This document shows, piece by piece, positions 12,587 to 18,757 of a stretch of 64,000 bases of DNA; the first letter of the stretch is position 1; the number at the start of each line of letters is the position of its first letter. The position numbers were made by a program, and so were the translations under genes. Source of the DNA: Skermanella mucosa (GTDB lineage: Bacteria > Pseudomonadota > Alphaproteobacteria > Azospirillales > Azospirillaceae); assembly GCF_016765655.2 (NCBI RefSeq), contig NZ_CP086106.1, positions 4,205,001 through 4,269,000 of the forward strand, in the 5' to 3' direction. A model generated the notes under the pieces. It made no database searches. It was given only the letters and a program-made list of their open reading frames with translations, and was not told the DNA's origin.

Positions 12587-13324
12587 ATGCGTTTGTCCGG
12601 CAAGACCGCGTTGGTAACCGCGGCGGCCCAGGGGATCGGCCGCGCCACGGCGCTGGCTTTCGCGCGCGAAGGCGCCGATGTCGTCGCGACGGATCTCAAT
12701 CTAGACAAGCTGAAGGAATTGGAAGGCACCGAGCGGCTGGCGGTGCGCCGGCTCGACGTGCTCGACCCGGAGGCGATCCGGCGGCTCGCGGCCGATCTCG
12801 GCGCGCTCGACGTGCTGGTCAACTGCGCGGGGTTCGTCCACAACGGCACCATCCTCGACTGCGAGGAGAAGGACTGGGACTTCTCGTTCGACCTCAACGT
12901 CCGCAGCATGTACAGGACCGTGAAGGCGTTCCTGCCGGCCATGCTGGAGCGCGGCCAGGGCGGGTCGATCGTCAACATCGCCTCGGTCGCCTCGTCCGTG
13001 AAGGGCATTCCCAACCGGTTCGTCTATGGCGCCAGCAAGGCCGCGGTGATCGGGCTGACCAAGTCGGTCGCCGCCGACTTCGTGACCAAGGGAATCCGCT
13101 GCAACGCGATCTGCCCCGGCACGATCCAGAGCCCCTCGCTGGACGAGCGGATCGCGGCCACGGGCGACGCCGAGGCGGCCCGCAAGGCATTCATCGCGCG
13201 CCAGCCGCTCGGCCGGCTCGGCACGCCGGAGGAGATCGCCGCGATGGCGGTCTATCTCGCGAGCGACGAAGCGGCCTTCACCACCGGCCAGATCCACATC
13301 GTGGACGGCGGCATCAGCATCTGA
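12587..13324 (+). CDS. SDR-family dehydrogenase (2-keto-3-deoxy-fuconate / 3-hydroxybutyrate dehydrogenase-like)
   Basis: A 245-residue classical short-chain dehydrogenase. The nucleotide motif TAAAQGIG is at 11-18, NCAG near 79-82, the catalytic Ser region NIASVASS near 130, and Tyr147-x3-Lys151 in YGASKAA. The acidic residue at the end of strand 2 (VVATDLN) indicates NAD preference. The tail [12 protein letters not shown] is typical. The whole resembles the BDH2 / KDF dehydrogenase group, which oxidises hydroxyacids. It is the first gene of an eight-gene operon, preceded by GGGGGAGACTAAGGT, and lies 28 bp before a second SDR gene. The alcohol it oxidises is unknown, but the operon context suggests a hydroxyl group on an imported acid or nitrile. 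Confidence 0.9.
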
Positions 13325-13352
13325 TCCCGTTCAGGAAAATGAGGTCCCAGAC

Positions 13353-14153
13353 ATGGCAGACGTGACCGTCGCCGACATCGAAGCCGCCCGCGGGGCGGCC
13401 CGCTACCCCAGCCTGGACGGCAGGGCCGTGCTGATCACCGGCGGAGCGTCGGGCATCGGCGCCTCCACCGTGGCGCATTACGCGGTGCAGGGCGCCAAGG
13501 TCGGCTTCATCGACCGCGACGAGGCCGCCGCGGAAGGCCTGCTCGCCACCCTGCGCGAGGCCGGGGTCGCCGCACCGCTCTTCGTCGCGTGCGACCTGAC
13601 CGACATCTCCGCCGCCAGGGACGCCGCCCGGCGGATCGAAGGCGAGCTCGGCCCGATCCGCGTCCTGGTCAACAATGCGGCGCGCGACGACCGGCACACC
13701 ATCGCCGAGGTCACCCCGGAATACTGGGACGACCGCTTCAACGTGAACCTGCGGCACCAGTTCTTCATGGCCCAGGCGGTGGCGCCCGGCATGGCGGAGG
13801 CGGGCGGCGGCTCGATCGTCAATCTCGGCTCGACCTCCTGGTATGTCTGCACCGACGACCTGGCGGTCTACCAGGCGGCCAAGGCCGGCGCCCTGGGGCT
13901 GACGCGGGCGCTCGCCCGCGACCTGGGGCCGTCGGGCATCCGGGTCAACCACGTGGCACCGGGCTGGATCATGACCGAGCGTCAGAAGTCCCTGTGGGTG
14001 ACGCCGGAGAAGCTGGAGGGCAACCTCGCCCGCCAGTGCCTGAAGGAGGAGCTCAAGCCGCACGACGTGGCGCGGATGGTCCTGTTCCTGGGCGCCGACG
14101 ACAGCCGCATGTGCTCGGCCCAGACCTTTATCGTGGACGCGGGCACCGTCTGA
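13353..14153 (+). CDS. SDR-family oxidoreductase, second gene of the nitrile hydratase operon
   Basis: A 266-residue classical SDR with a 22-residue N-terminal extension. It shows TGGASGIG at 29-36, NNAA at 107-110, the Ser site NLGSTS near 157-162, and Tyr173-x3-Lys177 in YQAAKAG. Strand 2 ends in GFIDRD, so NAD is the likely cofactor. The C-terminal region ends TFIVDAGTV. Its stop is only two bases before the nitrile hydratase alpha start, so the two are tightly coupled. The substrate is not deducible from sequence. Two different SDRs in one operon suggest two oxidations or a redox pair acting on the same carbon skeleton. Confidence 0.9.
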
Positions 14154-14155
14154 CC

Positions 14156-16777: not shown

Positions 16778-16792
16778 GACAAGCTTTCAGCG

Positions 16793-17266
16793 ATGCGAAT
16801 CAACGACGCCATCCTGGGCGCCGTGCTGCTGGCTTTCGCACTCGCGATCGGCCTCTACGCACGCACCCTTCCGGCGATCCCCGGTCAGGAATACGGCGCC
16901 GCCGTGTTCCCGACCTGGATCGCCTTCGCCATCGGCGCCTGCTCGCTGGTCCTGATCGCCGGGGGACTCCGGCGCTGGGCCGAGACGGGCGCCGTCACCC
17001 TCGCCTCCTGGGCCCGCTCGGGACACCATCTGCGCGCGCTGGCGATCACCGTGGCGCTGGTGGTCTTCTACATACTGGTGTCGACCCCGCTCGGCTTCAT
17101 CCCCACCGCCTTCATCACGCTGACGGCCCTGTTCGCCGTGCTCGGCGTGAGGCTGGCGTTGGCGCCCGTCCTCGCCGCCGTGCTGACCATGGTGGTCCAT
17201 TACGGCTTCTACAGCCTGCTTCGGGTGCCGCTGCCGTGGGGCGTCCTGACCCCCTGGGCGTGGTGA
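16793..17266 (+). CDS. TctB-type small membrane subunit of TTT transporter
   Basis: A 157-residue protein with four predicted membrane helices, starting MRINDAILGAVLLAFALAIG and ending near the TctA start. The TctB family signature, a long first helix then a cytoplasmic loop before a helical hairpin, is evident (ITVALVVFYILVSTPLGFIPTAF). It partners TctA in the cytoplasmic membrane. It lies 15 bp after tctC and 6 bp before tctA. Sequence conservation in this family is low, so the call rests on topology plus context. Confidence 0.9.
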   Translation: MRINDAILGAVLLAFALAIGLYARTLPAIPGQEYGAAVFPTWIAFAIGACSLVLIAGGLRRWAETGAVTLASWARSGHHLRALAITVALVVFYILVSTPLGFIPTAFITLTALFAVLGVRLALAPVLAAVLTMVVHYGFYSLLRVPLPWGVLTPWAW

Positions 17267-17272
17267 CGCCGC

Positions 17273-18757
17273 ATGGACGCGATCCTTCTTGCCTCCCAGA
17301 TGGTGTTCCAGCCGCAGGTGCTGCTCACCATCGTCATGGCGGCGCTGTTCGGCCTGTTCGTCGGTGCGGTCCCCGGACTGACCGCGACCATGGCGACGGC
17401 GCTGCTGGTCCCGATCACCTTCTTCATGGAACCAGTCCCCGCGATCGGCGCCATCGTGACCTGCTCGGCCATGGCGATCTTCGCCGGCGACATCCCGGGA
17501 ACGCTGCTGCGCATCCCCGGGACCCCGGCATCGGCCGCCTATACCGACGAAGCCTACGCAATGACCCGCAAGGGCCAGGGCGAGCTGGCGCTGGGCGCGA
17601 ACCTGCTGTTCTCGGCGCTTGGCGGCCTGTTCGGCACCGCCATCCTGATCGTCGCCGCCCCGTCGCTGGCGGAAGTGGCGCTCCGGTTCAGCTCGTTCGA
17701 GTATTTCTGGCTGGCCTGCCTGGGGCTGACCTGCGCCACGGTGGTCGGCACCGGCTCGACGGTGAAGGGGCTGGTCAGCCTGCTGATCGGCCTGTTCGTC
17801 GCCACCATCGGCCTGAACAACCCGGCGGGCGTGCCGCGCTTCACCTTCGGCAACGTGGACCTGTTGGGCGGGATCGACTTCATCCCGGCCATGATCGGGT
17901 TGTTCGCGGTGTCGGAGATCTTCCGCTACGTGCTGGGCATGGCGCCCGACCTGGACGGCGCGCAGACCAAGGTCGGCAACCTGTTCACCGGCTGGGGACG
18001 GCTGATGAAGCAGTACTGGCGCCAGTCGATCCGCGGCAACGTGATCGGCATCTCGATCGGCGCCCTGCCCGGGGCCGGCGCCGACATCGCGTCGTGGGTC
18101 AGCTACGCCGTCAGCAAGCGGTTCTCGCGCACGCCGGAGAAGTTCGGCACCGGCCATGTCGAAGGCATCATCGAGAGCACCTCGTCCAACAACGCGGCGC
18201 TGGGCGGGGCCTGGGTGCCTGCCCTGGTGTTCGGCATCCCCGGCGACAGCATCACCGCGATCGTGATCGGCGTGCTGTACCTGAAGGGGATGAATCCCGG
18301 CCCGACGATCTTCATCAATAATCCCCAGGACATCTACGCGGTCTTCCTGATCTTCATCCTGGCCAACATCTTCATGATCCCGGCCGGCTGGGCCGCGATC
18401 AAGTCGGCCCGGGTGCTGATGCGGGTGCCGCGGAACGTCCTGATGCCGACGATCCTGATGTTCTGCGTCGTGGGATCGTTCGCCATCAACAACTCGGCGT
18501 TCGGCATCACGGTGATGCTGGTCTTCGGGCTGCTGGGCTTCGTGATGGAGGAGAACGGCTTTCCGATCGCGCCGACCATCCTGGGGATCGTGCTCGGCCC
18601 CATGCTGGAGGAGAACTTCGTCACCTCGATGATCAAGTCCGGCGGCAGCTTCGCGGGATTCTTCGAGCGGCCGATCTCGGGGACCCTGGGCGTGATCACC
18701 CTGGCGATCTGGATCGTTCCGCTGGCCCTGTTCGTCTGGCGGAAGGCCAGGAGCTGA
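17273..18757 (+). CDS. TctA-type large permease subunit of TTT transporter
   Basis: A 494-residue protein with about 11-12 membrane helices. Conserved TctA patterns are visible: FGLFVGAVPGLTATMATALLVP near residues 22-45, GDIPGTLLRIPGTPASAAYT near 70-90, and the repeat-related ISIGALPGAGADIASWVSY with the G-x-P-G-x-x-x-D motif. A second such loop reads GAWVPALVFGIPGDSITAIV. The family couples organic-acid uptake to an ion gradient. It is the last gene of the eight-gene operon; a short dispersed hairpin (18782-18804) lies just after the stop. Confidence 0.94.
   Translation: MDAILLASQMVFQPQVLLTIVMAALFGLFVGAVPGLTATMATALLVPITFFMEPVPAIGAIVTCSAMAIFAGDIPGTLLRIPGTPASAAYTDEAYAMTRKGQGELALGANLLFSALGGLFGTAILIVAAPSLAEVALRFSSFEYFWLACLGLTCATVVGTGSTVKGLVSLLIGLFVATIGLNNPAGVPRFTFGNVDLLGGIDFIPAMIGLFAVSEIFRYVLGMAPDLDGAQTKVGNLFTGWGRLMKQYWRQSIRGNVIGISIGALPGAGADIASWVSYAVSKRFSRTPEKFGTGHVEGIIESTSSNNAALGGAWVPALVFGIPGDSITAIVIGVLYLKGMNPGPTIFINNPQDIYAVFLIFILANIFMIPAGWAAIKSARVLMRVPRNVLMPTILMFCVVGSFAINNSAFGITVMLVFGLLGFVMEENGFPIAPTILGIVLGPMLEENFVTSMIKSGGSFAGFFERPISGTLGVITLAIWIVPLALFVWRKARS

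Follow-up and report, generated by a model that had tools for sequence, protein, structure and literature searches.

A conserved gene row in Skermanella combining a cobalt-type nitrile hydratase with two short-chain dehydrogenases and a tripartite carboxylate transporter

Introduction

Among the closest described systems, the L-2-keto-3-deoxyfuconate 4-dehydrogenase (L-KDFDH) of H. huttiense is represented by the structures 8y4j, 8xwk and 8y11, and according to passages of the report on this enzyme, Arg148, Arg192 and Arg214 hold the C1 carboxylate of the substrate, residue 252 is usually hydrophobic (Trp, Met, Phe and Leu being the commonest), and the W252M variant remains active (PMC11199699). 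The type-1 enzymes are recognised in these passages by R148-T183-R192-R214, a Ser-Tyr-Lys triad and more than 50% similarity (PMC11199699). For the periplasmic binding protein TctC of the tripartite tricarboxylate transporters (TTT), excerpts of another report describe an AGG-x-T-D loop that acts in carboxylate binding, as well as the structure 4x9t, which was solved without ligand (PMC5812351). Among the nitrile hydratases (NHases), P14K is named as the activator of P. putida in portions of a further source (PMC7193024). In this work, we analysed a window of 64,000 nucleotides from Skermanella mucosa (the whole stretch of DNA under study, positions 4205001-4269000 of the 6.4-Mb contig C1, NZ_CP086106.1, in a genome of 7.84 Mb and five contigs), in which an NHase, two short-chain dehydrogenases/reductases (SDRs) and a TTT are encoded in a single row of eight genes. 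We know of no established natural substrate for most nitrile hydratases.

Results

The row spans 12587-18757 of the window and consists of eight + strand genes, each of which starts with ATG:

12587-13324, + strand: SDR1, type-1 L-KDFDH/BDH2 family
13353-14153, + strand: SDR2, aldose 1-dehydrogenase-type SDR
14156-14818, + strand: cobalt-type NHase alpha (TIGR01323, PF02979)
14815-15471, + strand: NHase beta (TIGR03888)
15468-15719, + strand: NHase accessory (activator) protein (TIGR03889, 104.6 bits, cut-off 46)
15785-16777, + strand: TctC/Bug periplasmic binding protein (PF03401, AGGGTD loop)
16793-17266, + strand: TctB, small membrane subunit (PF07331)
17273-18757, + strand: TctA, large membrane subunit (PF01970, 445.5 bits)

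The gaps along the row are, in order, 28, 2, -4, -4, 65, 15 and 6 bp, and the families were assigned by profile matches to PF02979, PF21006, PF02211, PF03401, PF07331, PF01970 and the SDR families. An initial annotation, made from the letters alone, had listed the same eight tightly spaced genes on one strand under the same family names, and coordinates, gaps and profile cut-offs agree with it; the word "fused" in its title is misplaced, as the row contains no gene fusion. A consensus scan of 11400-19100 gave no promoter match (other promoter types would escape it) and no terminator inside the row, the single terminator-like site lying at 11544-11560 on the opposite strand, outside the row. 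In particular, the scan matched neither kind of signal between the NHase and TTT genes, where the initial annotation had expected one if the two were separate. We infer that the eight genes behave as a single unit and are read as one transcript, and we have high confidence in the operon and in the family assignments.

The gene order, together with divergent TetR and SMR genes, was kept in all five genus genomes (our own and those of four congeners). In the four congeners, the aligned parts of these genes contain no stop codon, and dN/dS ranged from 0.016 to 0.28 in 32 gene comparisons (eight genes in four genomes), indicating purifying selection on all genes. Because the order recurs with TetR and SMR in 5/5 genus genomes and the reading frames are intact, the layout is not due to chance. 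The DNA flanking the row aligns on both sides in the four congeners, and within Skermanella the operon has been passed on together with its neighbourhood. The combination of an NHase with two SDRs and a carboxylate importer looks genus-specific; its parts are singly ordinary.

As judged from family and residue matches, the two SDRs point to sugar acids. SDR1 shares 61.7% identity with the L-KDFDH chain of H. huttiense, and its best solved matches were 8y4j, 8xwk, 8y11 and human DHRS6/BDH2 (2ag5). Of the 13 pocket and catalytic residues listed for L-KDFDH, it matches 12, keeping R148, T183, R192, R214, Q215, S137, Y151 and K155, so that the Arg-Thr-Arg-Arg set, the Ser-Tyr-Lys triad and the >50% similarity of the type-1 enzymes are all present; the thirteenth position, 252, is Trp in L-KDFDH, Ile in four of the five genus genomes and Met in the fifth. 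A homologue with 64% identity on S. meliloti pSymB has an L-fuconate dehydratase and an FAH-family hydrolase as neighbours, and one with 66% identity in Azospirillum lies near TRAP transporter and gluconolactonase-family genes. For SDR2, the best NCBIfam match was D-xylose 1-dehydrogenase (XylB, NF053674; 324.7 bits), and the best solved matches were 4lvu, 7wwx and 9gwu (sulfoquinovose 1-dehydrogenase). The two plasmid relatives of SDR2 that were examined (55% and 53%) sit among sugar genes, and outside the genus an SDR1-like gene (39%) occurred near SDR2 in 1 of 28 SDR2 loci with flanks of about 1.5 kb.

The transporter has all three subunits of the TTT family (TctA, TctB and TctC), and its TctC retains the AGG-x-T-D loop as AGGGTD, with the uncharacterised protein 4x9t as the best solved match. 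The search for TctC relatives scored five candidates per genome, and 47 non-genus loci were read, 41 of them with a TctA match; 31 plasmid records carried a close TctC, and the annotation of seven was read. In three of the 47 loci (L245, L246 and L314), a KDFDH-type SDR (47-58% identity) and an FAH-family hydrolase lie within about 7 kb of the transporter, to which L314 adds an ILVD/EDD dehydratase, and L245 and L246 a gene annotated as phosphopyruvate hydratase. In a further locus (L247), genes for a rhamnonate dehydratase, an SDR and an FAH-family protein are present, and an SDR2-type gene (57-59%) was found in three loci, all of family f131; most of the 47 are without any such SDR, FAH or dehydratase match. 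Among the 99 non-genus NHase loci described below, no SDR1 match of at least 45% was seen (best 39%). The comparison of TctC loci with these NHase loci for a KDFDH-type SDR gave p = 0.03, a post hoc value in which many NHase loci are shorter and the plasmid loci were hand-picked from the top of the list. This type of transporter is at times found with sugar-acid genes and is not tied to one pathway.

These results bear on the route proposed in the initial annotation, which started from a small carboxylate with a nitrile or a hydroxyl group. With both groups on one molecule, TctC would import this carboxylate, the SDRs would oxidise it, the NHase would hydrate it, and the amide would be finished elsewhere. 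The co-operonic layout, the carboxylate loop in TctC and the three arginines of SDR1 for a substrate carboxylate are all consistent with such a route. However, no relative or paper examined here ties this transporter type to nitrile acids, and related transporter and SDR genes occur among sugar-acid genes without an NHase. A nitrile-bearing carboxylate is named by no result, and the SDRs indicate sugar acids; we regard this route as unlikely.

Both NHase subunits scored above their family cut-offs, alpha with 311 bits against 249.85 (TIGR01323) and beta with 249.2 bits against 152.2 (TIGR03888). The alpha subunit carries CTLCSC, which we take to be the Co-type metal motif, and its best solved match was the Co-type NHase 3qxe; in an alignment to 3qyh, the beta subunit keeps Arg52 and HTR-x-PRY, and CTLCSC and the two beta arginines are presumed to be functional. 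With both subunits above the cut-offs, the motif, the two arginines and an activator gene, the enzyme is by family a cobalt-type nitrile hydratase, for which nitrile-hydrating activity is predicted. Thiocyanate hydrolase was considered and rejected, the alpha subunit reaching 179.1 bits against the gamma-subunit cut-off of 291.45. Residue 71 of beta is Leu, which is also found in 3qyh and is His in 3qxe, and this may alter activity.

The absence of an amidase from the row, which the initial annotation had treated as a special feature, was confirmed, as the family profiles matched none in the eight genes; none was found within 5 kb in the congeners (L032, L112, L113 and L115), and the adjoining amidase gene of an NHase-amidase operon is therefore missing. 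Its absence is less special than had been supposed. We collected 100 NHase loci (the best 80 of 236 confirmed in the genome collection, and 20 of the best class-sample matches), no two of which share near-identical stretches, and 67 of them, including one from Skermanella, were flanked by 5 kb or more on either side. An amidase-signature gene lay within 5 kb of the NHase in only 6 of these 67, as detected by a profile built from nine amidases of our own genome, which more distant amidase types could escape. Profiles for FmdA-like and CN-hydrolase proteins added no further loci, and the annotated positive controls (L250 and L251) were both recovered with open reading frames taken from stop to stop. 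Because so few loci have an amidase in this range, lacking one is the norm for this NHase group, which corrects the assumption that an amidase is to be expected near relatives of this enzyme. One of the loci, from Marinobacterium lacunae (L048, NHase alpha at 10001), has an amidase 48 bp and a TTT (TctA 33%) 3.2 kb away.

In our own genome, PF01425 gave 14 amidase-signature matches (about 12 genes), and there were eight CN-hydrolase matches and nine FmdA matches (about five genes), and the NHase alpha of this row was the sole PF02979 match. A single NHase accompanied by many amidase genes would suit a role in detoxification or nitrogen scavenging, in which the enzyme clears plant or soil nitriles, from cyanogenic compounds or glucosinolate breakdown, that accompany the carbohydrate handled by the operon. 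Aldoxime dehydratase had no match in any of the five genus genomes, which agrees with such a role, although the same search matched no control genome and the absence is unproven. There is, however, no sequence evidence for a nitrile source, and we consider this role very unlikely.

Two side observations concern NHase-related genes elsewhere. Four genomes of one genus, belonging to the same family (G059, G061, G063 and G065; loci L023-L026), have 7-11 short matches to alpha residues ~57-120, mostly in one contig region per genome, and these arrays look like RiPP leader genes of the NHLP type, akin to the NHase alpha domain. On two Acetobacteraceae plasmids, a nikR-type nickel regulator occurs near the NHase (L162, 12717-13160, 0.1 kb away; L249, 2746-3165, about 6 kb away), which is possibly linked to metal supply.

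Outside the genus, the comparison speaks for INDEPENDENCE of the halves, NHase and TTT being mostly apart. TctA lies within 5 kb of the NHase in 2 of the 67 well-flanked loci, namely that of Skermanella and that of Marinobacterium (L048, TctA 33% identical), and an NHase adjoins close TctC relatives in 2 of the 47 non-genus loci, in other orientations. On plasmid pL11-A of Pseudoroseomonas cervicalis, TctCBA is convergent with NHase alpha-beta-activator, and in genome G125 TctC and NHase are divergent and about 0.1 kb apart. NHase-adjacent TctC was seen in none of the 20 loci from the phylum sample, in which 18 genomes matched, our own included. Outside the genus, a close TctC (E <= 1e-80) was present in 26 genomes of the class sample, 23 of which also had NHase alpha (E <= 1e-40); in these 23, G125 and G428 left aside, the NHase was, among the matches listed, on another contig, at least 92 kb away or absent from the TctC locus, where contig ends may hide neighbours. 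Since about 0.05 adjacent pairs would be expected by chance over the 23 genomes (our estimate, from 10 kb in 5 Mb each), the recurrence of NHase-TTT adjacency is suggestive, not strong. In the open-access PMC papers searched (subscription papers and preprints lie outside them), nitrile hydratase is paired with neither the tripartite tricarboxylate transporter nor TctC. The initial idea of a dedicated module is thus upheld in part: lack of internal signals, the order in 5/5 genus genomes and the low dN/dS speak for one unit, and the halves stand together throughout the genus, whereas outside it their independent conservation, named beforehand as a point against the module, is largely what we found.

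Co-occurrence of TTT and NHase was also considered as a sign of coupling and rejected. The proportion of 23/26 exceeds the 138/383 of class genomes (own genus, two genomes, taken out), yet the control SDR2 gave 44/57, and because this control is nearly equal, the co-occurrence probably reflects large catabolic genomes. A quick tree of TctC and TctA with 46 rows (6 of 52 TctC rows were dropped for lack of TctA), in which several deep branches are weak, placed the NHase-adjacent loci L162 and L205 in a set of 16 rows with support 99, apart from Skermanella, the other 14 rows being without a nearby NHase. A single ancestral TTT-NHase cassette is therefore unsupported; the group table of the tree, taken by itself, amounts to one change for the NHase-adjacent group, with 36 ungrouped rows uncounted, and there may have been many losses from one TTT-NHase origin. 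TctC/Bug genes (26-33%) were also seen beside NHase without TctA within 5 kb in two betaproteobacterial metagenome-assembled genomes (L061, ~11802-12900; L055, ~3080).

The same comparisons allow the NHase to be a passenger, that is, a gene set which was inserted into, or joined to, an unrelated carboxylate-catabolic operon before the genus diversified, and which was kept only for useful co-expression, NHase and transporter having no common substrate. This would account for the rarity of TctA near NHase (the 2/67 loci, one of them Skermanella, and the 0/20 adjacent TctC loci of the phylum sample), and alpha, beta and activator stand together in 92 of the 100 NHase loci, indicating that the set moves as a unit. 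However, two further lineages, the Pseudoroseomonas plasmid and G125, pair TctC with NHase elsewhere in the tree, and the arrangement is preserved in 5/5 genus genomes; we consider a passenger somewhat unlikely.

Upstream of the row lie the divergent TetR and SMR genes and two conserved sites:

12487-12514, + strand: conserved upstream block ACATACCAGTT-N9-GAAACTRT, candidate control site
12360-12381, strand-neutral: perfect palindrome over the TetR start, putative operator of the divergent TetR
11792-12388, - strand: divergent TetR regulator (PF00440, PF17937)
11435-11764, - strand: SMR-family efflux protein beside TetR (PF00893)

The 28-bp block had no mismatches in the alignment of the five genus genomes, and across our own genome it had one exact match and one other place at three mismatches; it is probably the control site of the operon. 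As an operator common to other lineages it was rejected: in the window and the collected loci, searched with up to four mismatches, the only non-genus matches were in L055 and L247, with four mismatches each, and none was found in the NHase-adjacent L162 or L205. An amidase regulon under this block was likewise dropped, as the genome matches pointed to none. The palindrome is kept in 5/5 genus genomes, with one change in one of them, is the single place of its kind in the window at three or fewer mismatches, and is probably the operator of the divergent TetR. Because it overlaps the first codons, the true start of TetR probably lies inside the called open reading frame. The SMR efflux protein is probably outside the pathway.

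A hairpin at 18784-18802 was rejected as a terminator after TctA. It is one of three window copies (410-428, 589-607 and 18784-18802; at most one mismatch, 0.02 expected) of the 19-bp palindrome GCGCGGGCTCGACCCGCGC, which looks like a dispersed repeat and was not seen in about 200 bases 3' of TctA in three of the four congeners.

Discussion

The row is best read, tentatively and with somewhat less than even confidence, as a cassette for importing and oxidising a sugar-acid-type substrate, into which an NHase was recruited. The hydroxycarboxylate that TctCBA would import is probably of the sugar-acid type. SDR2, by its family, may work as an aldose-type 1-dehydrogenase, and SDR1, by family and residues, may oxidise a 2-keto-3-deoxy acid, or a cyclic analogue of one, at the 4-hydroxyl, with the three arginines of SDR1 presumably holding the substrate carboxylate. 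The activator-matured cobalt NHase would hydrate a nitrile that either accompanies the imported substrate or arises from it, and the amide could then be hydrolysed by one of the amidases encoded elsewhere in the genome, whereas lactonase, dehydratase and C-C hydrolase would come from other loci.

Several points weigh against the sugar-acid cassette. The operon is without a lactonase, dehydratase or FAH (C-C) hydrolase, the search having covered the operon and not the rest of the genome; SDR2, with 324.7 bits, falls below the XylB cut-off of 400; and near the transporter a KDFDH-type SDR (3/47), an SDR2-type SDR (3/47) and an NHase (2/47) are each found in few loci. In addition, nothing known to us connects nitriles with these SDRs. 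The steps missing from the operon, and the fact that such a combination is rare, keep our confidence at this tentative level.

A bolder alternative would be a dedicated pathway for a natural nitrile-bearing hydroxy or sugar acid, such as an aldononitrile, a cyanohydrin or a cyano-sugar acid, which we think quite improbable. TctC would recognise the acid, the NHase would convert nitrile to amide, and the two SDRs would carry the skeleton to central metabolism. To our knowledge, no catabolic route for nitrile-bearing hydroxy or sugar acids has been described. In Skermanella, an NHase stands in one conserved row, behind one upstream site, with an importer and two dehydrogenases of known families, and this gene combination hints at an unrecognised nutrient. 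Ligand binding by TctC and the activity of SDR1 therefore offer a direct route to the nitrile that the enzyme meets in nature, or to the substrate that accompanies it.

Compared with known systems, the NHase has the same subunits, motif, activator and alpha-beta-activator order as the Co-type enzyme 3qxe, the organism of which we take to be Pseudomonas putida, but the Skermanella enzyme is without an amidase neighbour and sits after SDR genes and before a TTT. SDR2 finds its best family and structure matches in XylB and sulfoquinovose 1-dehydrogenase, but remains under the XylB cut-off. SDR1 shares with type-1 L-KDFDH (FucF, of the non-phosphorylating L-fucose/pentose Route III) the Arg-Thr-Arg-Arg pattern and an Asp-hydrophobic NAD motif, as given in parts of the respective reports (PMC11199699, PMC6336799), and differs from it in the Ile or Met at 252 and in an operon without dehydratase or FAH hydrolase. 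The plasmid pL11-A likewise places TctCBA (61/40/67% identity) next to NHase alpha-beta-activator, but in convergent orientation, without SDRs and with a transporter from another part of the tree. Finally, the transporter resembles known TctCBA systems in its three subunits and AGG-x-T-D loop, whereas in Skermanella it stands in one operon with an NHase and two SDRs.

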